64,000 nt of DNA, from NCBI GenBank assembly GCA_016786595.1, contig JAEUWB010000060.1:62001-126000 (forward strand), read 5' to 3'. Position 1 is the first letter of the stretch; each line of letters opens with the position of its first letter. This DNA is from a bacterium (GTDB lineage: Bacteria; Bdellovibrionota_C; UBA2361; SZUA-149; JAEUWB01). Shown one piece after another: positions 44,344 through 51,360 of this stretch. The notes beneath the pieces were generated by a model, which worked only from the letters and a program-made list of their open reading frames with translations, was not told the origin of the DNA and did no database searches. A program made the translations under genes and the position numbers.

Positions 44344-45510
44344 ATGCATCGTAAATTTCTTCCCTCCTTATTGCTTTCATTTGCTCTAATATCCTGCTGG
44401 ATAGCAGTTTCAATTTATGTACAGAGTCAAAGTGGTGGAACCTCATTTAGTGCAGGAACCGGACTATCAAGATTTAAAGATGGAGTAGATTTTTCACTTT
44501 CAACAGGAGTAACTCTATTTATATTTTCCATCTTTCAAATTCTTATCGATTTTAAACTAAAAGGATCAAAAGCTCTTGCGATACTCCTTGGAGTTTTCCT
44601 TCCTCCCTTTGCAGCTTTTTTCATTAATGTAATTCCGTTATTACTCGGGGGGCCATTACGTGGAGATGCTACACTTTTAATACTTCTGCCTTTTATCGCC
44701 GCTCAATCGGCAATAACTTTAATTCCAATTTGGATAACTTATGGATTGATCTTAAATTCTATCGCAAAAGATTCAACGTCAAAAAGTGCATGGTTAAAAG
44801 CTACCGGGGCGCTAAGTCTTCTGGCTGTGATAGTAATAGCTCTTTTTGGTTTTAGCCCTAAGTCAGAGCGACCATTTGAATTGATTCGAGAAGGAAATGC
44901 AGTGGAGTTAGAAAAGTTACTTGTGGAAGGTCTTTCTCCGAATATTGTTGATAAAGAGGGAATCTCTCTTCTTCATTATGGTGTATTTCATGGGTCGCTT
45001 GATGTTGTGCGGGTACTTCTAGAGCATGGAGCAGATACGGAGTATAAGAGCTTTGATAGAAATACTGCGCTCTCCTACGTTGGGCCATATGAAGATGAGC
45101 TTTTTGATCTTGTTCTTAAGCACTCAAAGAATGTTGCTCAAGATGAACAAAGCTTTTGGAATGCGCTCAATAATAACAATCTCGAGAGAGTTAAGAAGCT
45201 CATAGCAGCAGGGCAGAGGGTCCATCTTCTACGGAGTGAAGAAGTTATCAGGATGTCCATTGATAAGAATAGTTTGGAGATGCTCAAACTTCTATTGGAT
45301 TCTGGCGCAGACCCTAATTCTTCAGAGAGATATTCAAAGAGGACACCTTTAATGTTAGCCGCTGGTGCTGGAAAGATTGAGTTTGTAAAGATTCTACTAG
45401 AAAAAGGAGCAGACCCCGAACTTAAAGACAAAGATGGAAGAACCGCCAAAGATTATTCTAAGTATTCTAACTCTGATGAGGTAAAAGCTCTGCTCGAGTC
45501 ACTTTCTTAG
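44344..45510 (+). CDS. membrane protein with C-terminal ankyrin repeats
   Basis: 388 aa. Four to five transmembrane helices fill residues 1-175. From about 180 to 388 come ankyrin repeats, the clearest being DKEGISLLHYGVFHGSLDVVRVLLEHGAD and RTPLMLAAGAGKIEFVKILLEKGADPELKDKDGRTA, with GADPN-type turns. Ankyrin repeats mediate protein contacts in the cytoplasm. The membrane half resembles no known transporter, so a scaffolding or sensor role is the only inference. Confidence 0.82.
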   Translation: MHRKFLPSLLLSFALISCWIAVSIYVQSQSGGTSFSAGTGLSRFKDGVDFSLSTGVTLFIFSIFQILIDFKLKGSKALAILLGVFLPPFAAFFINVIPLLLGGPLRGDATLLILLPFIAAQSAITLIPIWITYGLILNSIAKDSTSKSAWLKATGALSLLAVIVIALFGFSPKSERPFELIREGNAVELEKLLVEGLSPNIVDKEGISLLHYGVFHGSLDVVRVLLEHGADTEYKSFDRNTALSYVGPYEDELFDLVLKHSKNVAQDEQSFWNALNNNNLERVKKLIAAGQRVHLLRSEEVIRMSIDKNSLEMLKLLLDSGADPNSSERYSKRTPLMLAAGAGKIEFVKILLEKGADPELKDKDGRTAKDYSKYSNSDEVKALLESLS

Positions 45511-45619: not shown

Positions 45620-45916
45620 ATGCAAGTTATTCGATCTACGGAATTTGAGCGGTGGATTACATCTGAATCTGCCAAGATTCAGGCTCTAGTAGAATCTCGC
45701 GTCTTTAGAATAGAGCATTATGACCATTTCGGAGATGCCAAGTATCTTGGTGATGGGCTTTCAGAGCTTCGATGGAAAAATGGCTTGAGAGTCTATTTTG
45801 CAAGAACTGGGGCCAGAGTAGTTTTACTCTTGCATGGTGGAGGCAAGAATGAGCAAAAAAATGACATCAAAAAAGCAAAAATTCTCCTTGAACGATATAC
45901 CACTTCGCAAGCTTAA
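45620..45916 (+). CDS. RelE/ParE-fold toxin of the addiction-module killer type
   Basis: 98-aa toxin of the HI1419/RelE-like group: MQVIRSTEFERWI at the start, the conserved DHFGDAKYLGDGLSELR segment near 37, then RVYFARTGARVVLLLHGGGKN and KKAKILLERY, a classic ending for these ribosome-dependent or mRNA-cleaving toxins. The cognate helix-turn-helix antitoxin gene overlaps its end by 68 bp, the toxin-first order of HigBA-like systems. An operator palindrome lies just upstream. Confidence 0.88.
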   Translation: MQVIRSTEFERWITSESAKIQALVESRVFRIEHYDHFGDAKYLGDGLSELRWKNGLRVYFARTGARVVLLLHGGGKNEQKNDIKKAKILLERYTTSQA

Positions 45917-46181
45917 ACCTGGTGCGAAGGTTCACAAGGTAAGCAGTGCCAATCGCCTCAAAGATCAAGAGCTAGTCTTTAAAGCTTTTTGGCAGTGTCT
46001 TGTTGAGGAAGATATAGAGTCATTCAAAGAAATTCTTAGAACACATCTTGAAGCTGTGCATAAAGGTCAATTGGCTAAAAAATCTAAGACTTCAAGGCGG
46101 ACACTTCATCGGATTCTATCACCCGAAGGAAATCCGACGTTGAAAAATATTTCCAGTGTTATTCATGCGCTTTATGGATGA
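45849..46181 (+). CDS. helix-turn-helix antitoxin (HI1420-like)
   Basis: 110-aa antitoxin from ATG 45849, which has GGAGG six bases upstream; an ATG five codons earlier lacks one. It carries an XRE/HigA-like DNA-binding region near 70-108 (LAKKSKTSRRTLHRILSPEGNPTLKNISSVIHALYG), in line with probable addiction module antidote proteins. It should bind the toxin and repress the operon at the upstream palindrome. The lysine-rich N-terminus (MSKKMTSKKQK) lies inside the toxin gene. Confidence 0.86.
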   Translation: MSKKMTSKKQKFSLNDIPLRKLKPGAKVHKVSSANRLKDQELVFKAFWQCLVEEDIESFKEILRTHLEAVHKGQLAKKSKTSRRTLHRILSPEGNPTLKNISSVIHALYG

Positions 46182-46405
46182 CAATGGAGCAACTTGATTT
46201 TGTCACACCAGACTATTTTTCACAGCAGAAGTCTAACCGAGATTTACCTAACATCTGGATGCTTGAAGTGACTGGCGTGTTAACAGCTGAGCAAACAGCA
46301 ACATTGCTAAAATTTGCCCAAGATTTGGCAGCAAAAATTGAAGACTATTCGCAGCAATGGACAGGTGAAAAATGCCTGACAACTTCCTTTTTTGAAGGAA
46401 GGTAA
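46178..46405 (+). CDS. possible small protein overlapping the antitoxin stop
   Basis: A 75-aa frame starts at an ATGA overlap with the antitoxin stop, suggesting translational coupling. It is helical in the middle (TAEQTATLLKFAQDLAAKI). No family is recognised. It may be real, being co-directional and coupled, but no ribosome-binding or homology evidence supports it. Confidence 0.35.
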   Translation: MTMEQLDFVTPDYFSQQKSNRDLPNIWMLEVTGVLTAEQTATLLKFAQDLAAKIEDYSQQWTGEKCLTTSFFEGR

Positions 46406-46531
46406 GAAACACCGCTGCATTAGTCTGAATTGTTTTGCTAAAGCTACAATCTCGGAAGTTTTTTTGTAATCACTATGATGCCAGCTAAAATTTATTTGCA
46501 GCCATAAGTGCGGCTGTGATATAAGTAAGTT

Positions 46532-46579
46532 ATGTCTCTTGTTTGCTTGCAATTTACGACTACGACCACAACCCCTTAG
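46532..46579 (+). CDS. thrL: thr operon leader peptide (15 aa, six Thr in a row)
   Basis: Reads MSLVCLQFTTTTTTP then TAG. The run of six different Thr codons (ACG ACT ACG ACC ACA ACC) just before the stop, 112 bases upstream of thrA, is the signature of attenuation controlled by threonyl-tRNA. No strong ribosome-binding site is visible; the predicted start site of transcription is nearly at its ATG, so it may be a leaderless transcript. Functional role inferred. Confidence 0.65.
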   Translation: MSLVCLQFTTTTTTP

Positions 46580-46624
46580 CGGGTTAAAATATTCTTTTTT
46601 CTACAATACACTCGTTTTTTTACT

Positions 46625-46651
46625 CTAAACCGTCAGACAATGACGATTTAG
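46625..46651 (+). terminator. hairpin before thrA, possible attenuator structure
   Basis: CTAAACCGTCA (46625-46635) and TGACGATTTAG (46641-46651) form an 11-bp stem with one mismatch around GACAA. The stem extends to 46622-46654 through one wobble pair. No uridine run follows, so if it terminates it is not a standard intrinsic terminator. It might instead be an antiterminator or pause structure. Confidence 0.4.
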
Positions 46652-46691
46652 GGTTACATCATCACAGCAGAACAATTTATAGTAGGACTCT

Positions 46692-49136
46692 ATGAAAGTC
46701 ATGAAATTCGGCGGAACATCTGTCGGTTCCCCAGAAAATATCAGAAAAGTTTGTCGTATTGTTGAGCAAGCTGCCAACGAAAAGCAAGTCCAGGCAGTTG
46801 TTGTTTCGGCATTTTCAGGTGTAACAGATCTACTCCTAAAGATATCGCACCAGGCAGAAAAAGCTGAACAACAAGCGAAGCTAACATTTAAGCAGCTCTG
46901 CGATCAGCATCTACAATACGTCGAAGAACTTTTCCCGGCAAAGCATCGTAGCTTAGTCGTTGCCACAGTTAAAACTAGTTTCAATGAACTCGAAGAACTA
47001 CTGCGCGGAATTGCAACCTTAGGAGAATGCTCACCTCGTATGCGCGACCGTATTGCCGCTTATGGCGAACTTTTGTCAGCATTTATTGTTGCTAAGTTTT
47101 TTTCCGAGCAGGGACTGCAAACTACGCTTTGCGATCCACGGCAATTAATCTGCACTAATGATAAATTTGGTAACGCCCACGCAGATTTAAATGTTTCAAG
47201 TCAACGCATCCAGGCAGCTTATCAAAATATTCAAGGCTTCCTCTTATTCCCAGGCTTTATCGGGGCAACAGCTAAGGGAGATACGACAACCTTAGGTCGC
47301 GGCGGGTCCGACTACACGGCGTCAATTGTTGGCGTTGCCTTAGGAGCAGCTGAAATTGAAATTTGGACTGACGTAAATGGTGTGATGACAGCTGACCCAC
47401 GAGTTGTGCCCGACGCAATTTCAATCTCACAGCTCAGTTATGAAGAAGCGATGGAACTTTCTCATTTCGGGGCAAAGGTAATTTATCCTCCAACAATTCA
47501 GCCTGCCTACGCTGCCGGAATACCGCTGCGGATTAAAAATACTATGCAACCGAGCTTCCCGGGAACAGTGATTAGTACCGGCACAATCGCTCACGAATAT
47601 CTAGCAACCGGCATATCTTCGATTGAGCACGTTGCATTAATCCGTGTTCTGGGCGCAGGCATGCAAGTAGTGCCAGGTAGTGCGGGCAGGGTCTTTGCGG
47701 TGCTTTCGCAGGAGAAAATTAACGTAATCTTAATTTCACAAGCTTCCTCAGAGCACTCGATTTGTTTTGCAATTGACCCAAGTCAGACAGAACTAGCGGT
47801 GAGCGCATTGAACGAAGAATTTTCTACGGAATTTAAAGAACATAAGCTGGATACGATTATCGTGCAGGATCAATGTTCCATTATTGCACTGGTTGGCGAG
47901 AATATGCGCAACCTTCCTGGCATTAGTGGTAAATTTTTTCATGCGCTGGGGAAAAATAGCGTGAATATTATTGCCATCGCTCAAGGCTCTTCTGAATTAA
48001 ATATTTCAGCAGTGATCGAGCGACACGATCGAAAAAAAGCGCTGCAAGCTGTGCATGAAACATTTTTCCTTTCCAGTATTAATAAACTCAACGTTTTTTG
48101 CGTAGGGATGGGACTGATTGCACGCACTTTGACGCAACAAATCAGTGACCAGCATCAAGAATTGATCGATCAATATCGCACTGACGTGCGCCTGCTGGGT
48201 GTCTCGAATACAAAAAAAATGCTGATCGGTGAAAACAAGTTGATGCTTGATCAACTACCGCAAATTGTTGAAACCAATGGCTCACCCGCCGCAACAGATA
48301 AATTCGTCCAGCAAATAATTGATCTCAATTTGCCAAATAGCGTTTTCGTAGACTGCACGGCAAGTGAAGCAGTGCCAGAATTCTATGAACGCTTGCTCAG
48401 TGCTAATATTTCTGTCGTCACGGCGAATAAAAAAGGACTTGCCGCAGATCTTACAAAGTATCAACTCATGAAAGCTGCTGAAAAAAAGCATAACACCCTG
48501 TTTCTCTATGAGACATCAGTCGGAGCGGGCTTGCCGGTAATTAATACACTCAAAGACCTAATCAAAAGTGGTGATACGATTCTTGAAATCGAAGCAGTCT
48601 TAAGTGGAACATTAAGTTATATTTTTAATACACTAACTGCTGCTGATTCTTTTGCGGAGATCGTTAAACAAGCAAAAGATCTAGGTTACACGGAACCAGA
48701 TCCGCGGGACGATTTAAGTGGTACGGATGTAGCACGCAAACTCTTAATCTTAGCCCGGGAAGCTGGGCAGGAGATCTCAATGCCTGAGATCCAAGTGCAA
48801 AGTCTCATCCCTGAAGTTTGTCGCAAGTGTTCGGCCGAGGAGTTTCTTGCGCTGCTTAAGCTGCACGAAGCCGAAATACTTAAGCCCTTTGCCGCAGCGC
48901 TAAAGCAAGGTAAAAAATTATGTTACAGTGGAGCAATTAAAGATGGAGTTGCCAGTACTTCTCTACAAGCAATTGGACCAGAGCACCCATTTTATGGCCT
49001 CTCGGGCAGCGATAACATTATTTCCTTTAAAACCAGACGCTACCATACTCGTCCGTTGATCATTAGAGGACCTGGGGCAGGGGCAGATGTTACGGCTGCC
49101 GGGGTTTTTGCTGATATCCTACGGGTAGCGATATGA
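46692..49136 (+). CDS. thrA: bifunctional aspartokinase / homoserine dehydrogenase I
   Basis: 814-aa fusion enzyme for the first and third steps from aspartate towards threonine. The kinase (about 1-290) starts KFGGTSVGSPENI and includes TTLGRGGSDYTA and the DPRVVPDA region. ACT regulatory domains follow (about 310-450). Homoserine dehydrogenase (about 455-810) has the FCVGMGLIA dinucleotide-binding segment, VTANKKG and SGTLSYIFN ... LGYTEPDPRDDLSGTDVARKL. E. coli ThrA is 820 aa. GGA lies before the ATG. It overlaps thrB by four bases (ATGA). Confidence 0.96.
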   Translation: MKVMKFGGTSVGSPENIRKVCRIVEQAANEKQVQAVVVSAFSGVTDLLLKISHQAEKAEQQAKLTFKQLCDQHLQYVEELFPAKHRSLVVATVKTSFNELEELLRGIATLGECSPRMRDRIAAYGELLSAFIVAKFFSEQGLQTTLCDPRQLICTNDKFGNAHADLNVSSQRIQAAYQNIQGFLLFPGFIGATAKGDTTTLGRGGSDYTASIVGVALGAAEIEIWTDVNGVMTADPRVVPDAISISQLSYEEAMELSHFGAKVIYPPTIQPAYAAGIPLRIKNTMQPSFPGTVISTGTIAHEYLATGISSIEHVALIRVLGAGMQVVPGSAGRVFAVLSQEKINVILISQASSEHSICFAIDPSQTELAVSALNEEFSTEFKEHKLDTIIVQDQCSIIALVGENMRNLPGISGKFFHALGKNSVNIIAIAQGSSELNISAVIERHDRKKALQAVHETFFLSSINKLNVFCVGMGLIARTLTQQISDQHQELIDQYRTDVRLLGVSNTKKMLIGENKLMLDQLPQIVETNGSPAATDKFVQQIIDLNLPNSVFVDCTASEAVPEFYERLLSANISVVTANKKGLAADLTKYQLMKAAEKKHNTLFLYETSVGAGLPVINTLKDLIKSGDTILEIEAVLSGTLSYIFNTLTAADSFAEIVKQAKDLGYTEPDPRDDLSGTDVARKLLILAREAGQEISMPEIQVQSLIPEVCRKCSAEEFLALLKLHEAEILKPFAAALKQGKKLCYSGAIKDGVASTSLQAIGPEHPFYGLSGSDNIISFKTRRYHTRPLIIRGPGAGADVTAAGVFADILRVAI

Positions 49137-50077
49137 AAAATCTCTCCACGGTGAAAGTCTTTTCTCCAGCAACAGTTGCCAATGTGGCGTGTGCATTTGA
49201 TGTATTAGGTTTTGCACTTGAAAGTGTTGGGGATTTAATCACTGCACACAAAACTAAGGTGCCCGGGGTGAAGATTACAAAAATTATCTCACCCTATGGA
49301 GAACTTTCCCTTGATCCAAAGCATAATACTGCCTCTGTCGCAGCACAGACATTGCTGAAAAATTTGGACCCTGGACTTGGGTTTGAACTTGAGATTGAAA
49401 AACAAATGCCAATCGGAAGCGGACTTGGTTCTAGTGCAGCAAGTGCGGCAGGCGCAGTGTTTGCGCTAAATGAATTATTAAACCGCCCTTTTACACAAAA
49501 AGAACTGATTACATTTGCGATGGAGGGGGAGCGTGTTGCTGCAGGTGTGGCGCATGCTGATAACGTAGCCCCGGCATTACTCGGCGGATTTACCTTAGTT
49601 AGACAGGGACTGCCATTGGATGTGGTCAAAATTCCTTTCCCCGAACAATTAGTAATCGCTGTAGTTTGTCCATTGATTGAAGTTCGGACTGAAGATGCAC
49701 GTAAAATACTTAAAAAATTGATTCCATTTAAGCGTGTGGTTGAGCAGTTCGGTAACATTGCGGGACTAGTCGCGGGGCTATGTCAGAAAGATCTAGAGCT
49801 GATTGGTCGGTCGCTGCAAGATGTAATTATCGAACCTGAACGGGCAATTTTGATCCCTGGATTTAAAGAAGCAAAGCAAAGTGCCCTTGATGCTGGAGCA
49901 CTTGGCTGTAGCATTTCGGGAAGTGGACCTGCGTTATTTGCATTTTGTAAAGATTTAGCTCAGGCCCAAAAAGTTGCAGATGCGCTAGCGCTACAGTTTA
50001 AAAAGATTGAGATCGATAGCTTGGTGTTTACTTCAGCGATTAATCGCACAGGGTGTGCCGTGGTTGAAGGGCAATGA
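49133..50077 (+). CDS. thrB: homoserine kinase (GHMP family)
   Basis: 314 aa. Phosphorylates homoserine to O-phosphohomoserine with ATP. The GHMP motif for ATP binding is PIGSGLGSSAASAAG (near 97-111); CSISGSGPALFAF near 264 is the third conserved motif. The N-terminus VFSPATVANVACAFDVLGFA matches ThrB. It overlaps thrA and thrC by four bases on each side, so the operon is translationally coupled. Confidence 0.96.
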   Translation: MKNLSTVKVFSPATVANVACAFDVLGFALESVGDLITAHKTKVPGVKITKIISPYGELSLDPKHNTASVAAQTLLKNLDPGLGFELEIEKQMPIGSGLGSSAASAAGAVFALNELLNRPFTQKELITFAMEGERVAAGVAHADNVAPALLGGFTLVRQGLPLDVVKIPFPEQLVIAVVCPLIEVRTEDARKILKKLIPFKRVVEQFGNIAGLVAGLCQKDLELIGRSLQDVIIEPERAILIPGFKEAKQSALDAGALGCSISGSGPALFAFCKDLAQAQKVADALALQFKKIEIDSLVFTSAINRTGCAVVEGQ

Positions 50078-51360
50078 AATTCTATAGCACTAAAGATCGC
50101 TCTGTTAGTGTCAGCCTCAAAGAAGCTGTGATCAATAATCTCCCCGCTGGCGGGGGATTATATCTACCAGAGGAAATTCCGCGAATTCAACCCGGCCAGT
50201 TAGAAAGCTTAGCAAGCCTATCGTTTCCGGAGCATTCATTCGAGATACTGCATACACTTTTAACTAATTCTCTTCCGCGCAAAATTTTAGAAGCGATTTG
50301 CTACAAAGCATTTAGTTTTGATGTCCCGTTGGTTCGTCTTGCCACAAATCTTTATACACTTGAACTATTTCATGGACCAAGCCTGGCTTTTAAAGATTTT
50401 GGCGTGCGTTTCATGGCCGAGTTACTTACTTACTATCATGATGGTAGAGATCTTACTGTTTTAACTGCAACTTCAGGAGACACAGGAGGGGCAGTTGCTG
50501 CCGCTTTTTACGCGCGTAAAGGTTTCGACGTTTTTATCCTTTATCCGTCTGGGAAAGTGAGCGCACTTCAGGAATTACAAATTGCCTCACTCGGTGGAAA
50601 TGTTAGGGCGATTGAAGTTGACGGAACATTTGATGATTGCCAACGACTTGTGAAATCAGCACTAGTCGATCAAAAAATTCTTGCACGACGAACGTTCTGC
50701 TCAGCAAATTCAATTAATGTGGCGCGATTATTGCCCCAAATCTGCTATTATTTTTGGGCCGTCACCAAGCTTCCTGCTAAAACCAGCCCAATTTTTTCTG
50801 TCCCGTCAGGGAACTTTGGAAATGTCACGGCTTGCTTATTAGCTAAACAGATGGGACTGCCGGTAAAAACTGTCGTTGCTGCGACAAATGTAAATGACAT
50901 TGTGCCGCGGTATCTTCGATCGGGAAATTATGAGGTGCAGCAGTTTAAATCGACACTTGCTAATGCAATGGATATTGCTGACCCGAGTAACTTCATTCGC
51001 ATCCAGGCGTTGTATCAAGACTCACTTGAGAAATTACAGTCTGAGCTGCAGGCATTTGCCTTTTCTGATGAGGAAACAAAAGCTGCAATTGCGTTCCTTT
51101 ATCGTCAATATCGCTATAGCAGCGAGCCTCACGCTGCGATTGGCTATTTGGGGCTGAAATTGCTTTTGCAGCAGGATCCAAATTCTATCGGCGTATTTCT
51201 GGGCACGGCGCACCCACTAAAGTTTAAGGATATTGTTGAGCCAATTCTTGCTACTCAACTAGCTGAACCGGCGGAAGTTTCCAAATTTAAGGATGCAAAA
51301 AAGCGATCAATAAAAATTTCCGCGCAGCCTGCTGATTTGGCTACAATTCTTACTGCCTAA
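50074..51360 (+). CDS. thrC: threonine synthase, PLP-dependent
   Basis: 428 aa. Converts O-phosphohomoserine to threonine. The PLP lysine is in HGPSLAFKDFGVR near 109-115 (fold type II). The phosphate-binding loop SGDTGGAVAAAF follows near 133. VPSGNFGNVTA near 248 binds the cofactor phosphate. It has the N-terminal MKFYSTKDRSVSVSLKEAV of the E. coli-type enzyme. It closes the thr operon. Confidence 0.96.
   Translation: MKFYSTKDRSVSVSLKEAVINNLPAGGGLYLPEEIPRIQPGQLESLASLSFPEHSFEILHTLLTNSLPRKILEAICYKAFSFDVPLVRLATNLYTLELFHGPSLAFKDFGVRFMAELLTYYHDGRDLTVLTATSGDTGGAVAAAFYARKGFDVFILYPSGKVSALQELQIASLGGNVRAIEVDGTFDDCQRLVKSALVDQKILARRTFCSANSINVARLLPQICYYFWAVTKLPAKTSPIFSVPSGNFGNVTACLLAKQMGLPVKTVVAATNVNDIVPRYLRSGNYEVQQFKSTLANAMDIADPSNFIRIQALYQDSLEKLQSELQAFAFSDEETKAAIAFLYRQYRYSSEPHAAIGYLGLKLLLQQDPNSIGVFLGTAHPLKFKDIVEPILATQLAEPAEVSKFKDAKKRSIKISAQPADLATILTA

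Follow-up and report, generated by a model that had tools for sequence, protein, structure and literature searches.

The leader of the Escherichia coli thr operon contains a run of Thr and Ile codons, and for leaders of this kind it is well established that the amino acid is sensed by stalling of the ribosome at the Thr codons. To our knowledge, little is charted of amino-acid attenuation in bacteria other than Proteobacteria, Actinobacteria and Firmicutes. In mycobacteria, poly-cysteine leaders were predicted by Seliverstov 2005 (PMC1262725) and, in the part of that paper available to us, Rho is suggested for the cysteine leaders that have no terminator, a suggestion called weak there. These leaderless poly-Cys ORFs are reported, in papers that cite Canestrari 2020, to act by translational attenuation. 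In the tnaC and mgtL leaders, access of Rho is set by the position of the ribosome on the leader ORF, and Rho sites are high in C, low in G and have little structure, as described in the available excerpt of PMC5021804. The trpL leader ORF of Sinorhizobium meliloti begins at the 5' end of the transcript (PMC7298713, in the section available). A survey based on U-run terminators states, in its accessible part, that Rho-dependent cases are missed (PMC2965389), and in the text available for PMC9723704 there are hints, without detail, that leader peptides attenuate amino-acid operons of Flavobacterium psychrophilum. Neither a thr leader of Bacteroidota nor a stop-hairpin leader was found in the literature searched (open-licence PMC papers).

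RESULTS

A threonine leader ahead of thrABC

The locus described here lies in a 64-kb stretch of DNA (the window, that is, the whole stretch analysed) from a genome of 2.58 Mb that is 96.8% complete (G000). Its features are:

46496..46525, + strand, predicted promoter: TTGCAG at 46496-46501, an 18-nt spacer and the extended -10 TGA-TATAAG at 46517-46525
46532..46579, + strand, threonine leader peptide ORF, MSLVCLQFTTTTTTP followed by the stop: 15 codons, probably leaderless, with the ATG at +1
46556..46573, + strand, six Thr regulatory codons, read from the sequence: ACG ACT ACG ACC ACA ACC
46570..46585, + strand, stop-codon hairpin AACCC-CUUAGC-GGGUU, with the last Thr codon in the 5' arm and UAG in the loop
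46586..46631, + strand, pyrimidine-rich, G-poor tract with little predicted structure, a candidate Rho-loading region
46622..46654, + strand, second hairpin, without a U-run
46692..49136, + strand, thrA, bifunctional aspartokinase / homoserine dehydrogenase I (NF006959 equivalog, 1009.5 bits, cut-off 726)
49133..50077, + strand, thrB, homoserine kinase (TIGR00191, 228.1 bits, cut-off 168.25)
50074..51360, + strand, thrC, threonine synthase (TIGR00260, 294.3 bits, cut-off 167.1)

The three thr genes form an overlapping operon, and all three score above their NCBIfam equivalog cut-offs. Just upstream of the leader, at 45620-46181, there is a type II toxin-antitoxin pair, whose toxin is of the RelE/ParE family (TIGR02683, above cut-off) and whose antitoxin is HI1420-like (a weak match, below cut-off); a protein with ankyrin repeats at its C-terminal end is encoded at 44344-45510.

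The preliminary description of this DNA proposed a 15-residue leader with six consecutive Thr codons, 112 bp ahead of thrA, and the sequence bears this out: the peptide consists of MSLVCLQF, six Thr residues for which all four Thr codons are used, and a final Pro, and 112 nt separate the ORF from the thrA ATG (46692). The statement that only Thr is used holds too, the leader being free of Ile codons. The Thr run was placed directly before the stop; it is indeed next to it, with one Pro codon (CCT) intervening before TAG. This leader is the one short ORF in the 64-kb window with a run of at least six identical residues, internal TTG starts counted too, and 60 order-2 Markov simulations of 64 kb produced a single short ORF with a Thr run of at least six. 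No good Shine-Dalgarno sequence was seen before the leader ATG. Rfam Thr_leader gave no match at gathering score across the window and none up to E 10 at 46400-46760, and there was no Rfam match to a T-box or riboswitch in the leader. This is very probably a ribosome-mediated leader that senses threonine, and it has no intrinsic terminator.

The leader is kept in two relatives

The group surveyed comprised 45 genomes of one class (a phylum-wide search gave the identical 45), with no second genome of the window's family among them. A Thr leader precedes thrA in three of the 26 upstream regions of the phylum that were scanned, those of the window, L003 and L006 (the last below the threshold of the automatic leader scan and added by eye), while most of the phylum's thrA genes have none. 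L003 and L006 belong to one genus in the window's order, and their ThrA is 49% identical to that of the window. Their leader peptides, MLPNQLTTRRTTTTPLG in L003 and MHIFRTTPALTTSTPLG in L006, differ from that of the window; all the same, they too have an end rich in Thr, a Pro codon and a stop placed alike relative to the hairpin. The preliminary description had looked to related genomes as a check on the leader, and in both of these its position and its Thr codons are indeed conserved. No leader is present in L010, which is placed next to the window in the ThrA phylogeny (support 0.456). Acquisition of the thr operon from Bacteroidota was rejected, since a FastTree phylogeny of 106 ThrA proteins groups the window and L003/L006 with their own phylum. 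By eye, a tRNA-like sequence was seen shortly upstream of thrA in L002, L007, L008, L012, L014, L019 and L022, which come from genomes of the phylum that do not have the leader.

The extended -10 of the preliminary description is present (TGA TATAAG), and in all three leader-bearing sequences the distance from the start of the TGNTA motif to the leader ATG is exactly 12 nt, with -35 elements of TTGC type at a spacing of 17-18. If TGNTA is the -10 element, the leader ATG is at +1, and the leader mRNA is therefore probably leaderless. None of 53 window genes has TGNTA at 12 nt before its start, and a general tendency of this genome towards leaderless starts was rejected, there being no enrichment among these genes.

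A hairpin at the stop codon and a pyrimidine-rich tract

The relatives have the stop-codon hairpin at the same position, with other bases and another loop (arms AACCC/GGGUU in the window, CUACCCC/GGGGUAG in L003 and UACCCC/GGGGUA in L006), and in all three it contains or abuts the last Thr codon and the stop. Taken singly, the hairpin of the window does not stand out, since 11.6% of 1083 control stops reach an equal score, and the overall fold of the leader region has no unusual stability (z = -1.42); the significance of the leader comes from its gene context and its relatives. In the tract that follows, the 45-mer 46591-46635 contains 2 G, which is the 0.2 percentile of the window's 45-mers on both strands. 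The percentiles of the tract for G fraction are 0.2 in the window, 5.5 in L003, where G depletion is milder, and 1.8 in L006, and those for pyrimidines are 1.1, 0.2 and 0.1, respectively.

The terminator scan detected no U-run terminator before thrA in the window, L003 or L006. The doubt already voiced about the thrA-proximal hairpin was well placed: 46622-46654 has no U-run and is hence not an intrinsic terminator. The same description had AACCC (46570-46574) pairing alternatively with two copies of GGGTT; both copies are there (46581-46585 and 46651-46655), and the mechanism built on them is not supported, because the second GGGTT and the second hairpin are missing from both relatives and a modelled stalled ribosome scarcely alters how accessible the thrA start is predicted to be.

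Thr-only code and gene content

No match to acetolactate synthase was obtained in G000, in which 14 of 14 controls matched, and only sub-cut-off matches in G009 and G012. In the absence of the enzyme, isoleucine should not be made from threonine, and this would account for the lack of Ile codons in the leader. A strict link between Ile codons and acetolactate synthase does not hold across Bacteroidota and was rejected in a comparison that covered 42 genomes, with that of L066 left out: L102, L108, L117 and L124 have few or no Ile codons in genomes that have the enzyme, and the Ile-rich L093 belongs to a genome with a sub-cut-off match only. HisG was not found in G000, G009 and G012 (13 of 14 controls matched), for which reason a His leader was rejected, and no Trp leader was seen before trpE in these three genomes. 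Auxotrophies are probable in this lineage, given the missing HisG and the absence of acetolactate synthase above cut-off. The Rho gene was found in G000 and G012, and the Rho RNA-binding domain was not found in G009 (94% complete).

Two types of thr leader

The wider comparison took in 106 thrA upstream regions, drawn from the window's own phylum, from Bacteroidota and neighbouring groups and from a few further phyla, including the duplicates L062 = L008 and L125 = L015; upstream regions shorter than 100 nt (L018, L089, L112) were omitted. A Thr/Ile-rich leader ORF was present in 40 of the 106 regions and in 5 of the 106 reverse complements, while 30 shuffles gave a mean of 2.2 and a maximum of 8. 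Curation turned the 40 into 43, with L017 dropped as chance-like, the coordinates of L090 and L116 replaced, and L006, L102, L126 and L097 added by eye. These 43 thr leaders, mostly from Bacteroidota, divide into 19 with U-run terminators (type I, counting L114, whose hairpin with a long U-run is evident in the sequence and was missed by the terminator scan) and 24 without (type II, which includes the window, and L067 despite its flag in the terminator scan, 7 bp with the tail GTTATTTT).

A stop-touching hairpin with a score of at least 13 occurs in 20 of the 24 type II leaders and in 1 of the 19 type I leaders, and one above the 95th percentile of the 1083 control stops in 10 and none of them, respectively. 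Stop-codon hairpins are stronger in type II than in type I (p = 4e-6) and than at the control stops (p = 4e-9), and the stretch after the leader is more pyrimidine-rich in type II than in type I (p = 4e-8), a contrast weakened by the terminator arms that the type I stretches contain; these p values are too small, related sequences having been counted as independent. The type II hairpins, ACCCC/GGGGU or flipped ACGGG/CCCGU, represent one fold made from different bases. Low scores were given to L077, L082, L090 and L131, the first three of which have, by eye, a hairpin whose end falls immediately ahead of the stop.

In the ThrA phylogeny the type I leaders fall into a single clade, together with L089, whose upstream region is too short to score. 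Type II is found in the window's own phylum (with the window separate from L003/L006) and in two further clades, one of Cytophagales and one of Fulvivirga and Flavobacteriaceae. Bacteroidota with type II thr leaders have no genome-wide lack of terminators: in these genomes terminators were marked in 13 of 16 hisG leaders (the 13 include L175, whose 'terminator' is the stop hairpin itself) and in 3 of 4 ilvD leaders.

Some further sequences may be recorded here. In the Cyclobacteriaceae hisG leaders L174, L175, L178 and L187, His codons (HH-x-HHSS or similar) with two Ser codons are followed by a stop within a hairpin of UUCCUC/GGAGGAA type, without a clear U-run terminator, and these leaders resemble type II. 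Past the leader stop, the Flavobacteriaceae regions L102, L108, L116 and L124 have in common a motif like UUCCGUC / UCGUCCG, with which ACGGA in the leaders of L102 and L124 could pair; the pairing is not significant in either.

DISCUSSION

We take this to be a real threonine leader; its kind is known, while its phylum is little known, and the mix of its properties is unusual: it is probably leaderless, it uses Thr only, it has a hairpin at its stop codon and it lacks a terminator. For the reading as a whole, a threonine-responsive, ribosome-mediated leader with a leaderless start at which Rho stops transcription before thrA, we see slightly better than an even chance; as to the output itself, Rho-dependent termination is the likeliest, at not quite an even chance, with translational control next. 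The sequences establish the ORF and its codons, the operon, the conserved placement, the lack of a U-run terminator, the hairpin with the tract, and a Rho gene; we infer the leaderless start, the stalling and the Rho step. Transcription would start at, or a few bases from, the leader ATG, and ribosomes would begin on a leaderless mRNA. With plentiful charged tRNA-Thr the ribosome would pass the six Thr codons, halt at the UAG inside the hairpin and depart, leaving naked pyrimidine-rich, G-poor RNA on which Rho could stop transcription ahead of thrA. When threonine is scarce, it would stall within the Thr run, at the hairpin's edge, and cover the C-rich Thr codons, and thrABC would be transcribed. 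Because the ribosome is upstream of the tract in either state, the Rho model needs the stretch of Thr codons to be part of the loading site. Against the reading as a whole stand the small number of leader-bearing relatives (three leaders, two of them in one genus), the lack of a leader in L010, the failure to find a Rho RNA-binding domain in G009 and the milder G depletion in L003.

Without a terminator, the leader may instead control translation: in the absence of stalling the leader RNA would pair over the thrA start, which a stalled ribosome would keep open. Pairing of the leader with the thrA start beats most shuffles in L003 (p = 0.015) and L006 (p = 0.05), the Shine-Dalgarno sequence of thrA in the window sits within a predicted local hairpin, and the mycobacterial precedent, as far as its available description goes, is leaderless, as is probable for the window, with its codon run near the stop. 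In the window, however, long-range pairing between leader and thrA is no better than in shuffles (p = 0.605), and masking by a modelled stalled ribosome hardly moves the accessibility of the thrA start (0.41-0.47 across ribosome positions); unmasking of the start by the ribosome was rejected for all three leaders, since no effect was seen with the A site modelled at each codon in turn, the third codon being the first position and the stop the last. As evidence on mechanism, predicted folds carry little weight in either direction. We favour Rho slightly because no pairing was found in the window that hides the thrA start in a ribosome-dependent manner, and consider translational attenuation rather unlikely. 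Classical transcription attenuation has the right order and complementarity of segments in its favour, with AACCC/GGGUU serving as 1:2, GGUU/AACC as 2:3 and, for the 3:4 terminator, the hairpin at 46622-46654. That hairpin is not followed by a U-run, the 2:3 pairing is merely 4 bp, L003 and L006 have no 3:4 hairpin and only 61 nt between the leader stop and thrA, and mutually exclusive antiterminator and terminator are not conserved, which makes this mechanism improbable.

The erm leaders offer an analogy for control of mRNA stability, in which a ribosome stalled near the 5' end would protect the leaderless transcript from decay. A leaderless 48-nt ORF would place stalled ribosomes at the 5' end, and the tract after the leader is U-rich and naked; we think this a shade less probable still than a classical attenuator. 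That this short ORF arose by chance, or is non-regulatory, is very improbable. By itself the stop-codon hairpin lacks significance, the stability of the fold is nothing unusual and most thrA genes of the phylum lack the leader, but such a Thr run is rare, and this one sits before a Thr operon and has counterparts in two relatives.

Beyond the window, we tentatively propose, as a possibility somewhat short of even, a second, terminator-less architecture of amino-acid leaders, in which the last regulatory codon and the stop codon sit within a hairpin that is followed by a pyrimidine-rich tract. It would serve thr operons in Cytophagales, Flavobacteriaceae and the candidate phylum, where it would take a leaderless form, and his operons in some Cyclobacteriaceae, with Rho or translation rather than intrinsic termination as its output, alongside classical attenuators on other operons of the same genomes. 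The bacterium studied here, from a little-studied group, appears to combine a known kind of threonine sensor with less familiar wiring, the usual RNA off-switch being absent. Surveys keyed on U-run terminators, such as PMC2965389 as far as its available part describes it, are blind to leaders like that of the window. Comparing types I and II allows a simple test among culturable Bacteroidota, which would ask if the terminator is replaced by a stop-codon hairpin and a pyrimidine tract. Finally, the Thr-only code, together with no detected acetolactate synthase, suggests that leader codons track what the pathway feeds.

How does this leader compare with known systems? It shares with the enterobacterial thr attenuator (thrL; Rfam Thr_leader) a leader peptide rich in Thr codons before thrABC, but has Thr only, without Ile, no U-run terminator and no Rfam match. 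The type I leaders of Sphingobacteriales and neighbours likewise place a Thr/Ile leader before a homologous fused thrA, but theirs have U-run terminators, and 18 of 19 are without a strong stop hairpin. The type II leaders of Cytophagales and Flavobacteriaceae have in common with the window a hairpin at the last Thr codon and stop, the pyrimidine-rich tract and no U-run terminator; they are mostly longer, many have Ile codons, and there is no sign of a leaderless start. The S. meliloti trpL leader, as described in the section of PMC7298713 available, shares a start at the transcript's 5' end, which is probable for the window, and unlike it has a transcription terminator. The closest precedents are the leaderless poly-Cys attenuators of mycobacteria, along with the leaders tnaC and mgtL. 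In the published parts available to us, the former have a short ORF that is leaderless, as is probable for the window, and share with it a cognate codon run close to the stop codon, the lack of an intrinsic terminator and polypyrimidine motifs before the operon; the window differs in its threonine in place of cysteine, its stop-codon hairpin and its phylum, and the translational mechanism published for them is not clearly indicated in it. From tnaC and mgtL it differs in signal and sequence, and control of Rho access by the ribosome, as in those leaders, is a proposal here; the composition of the window's tract matches that of Rho sites in the available excerpt of PMC5021804.
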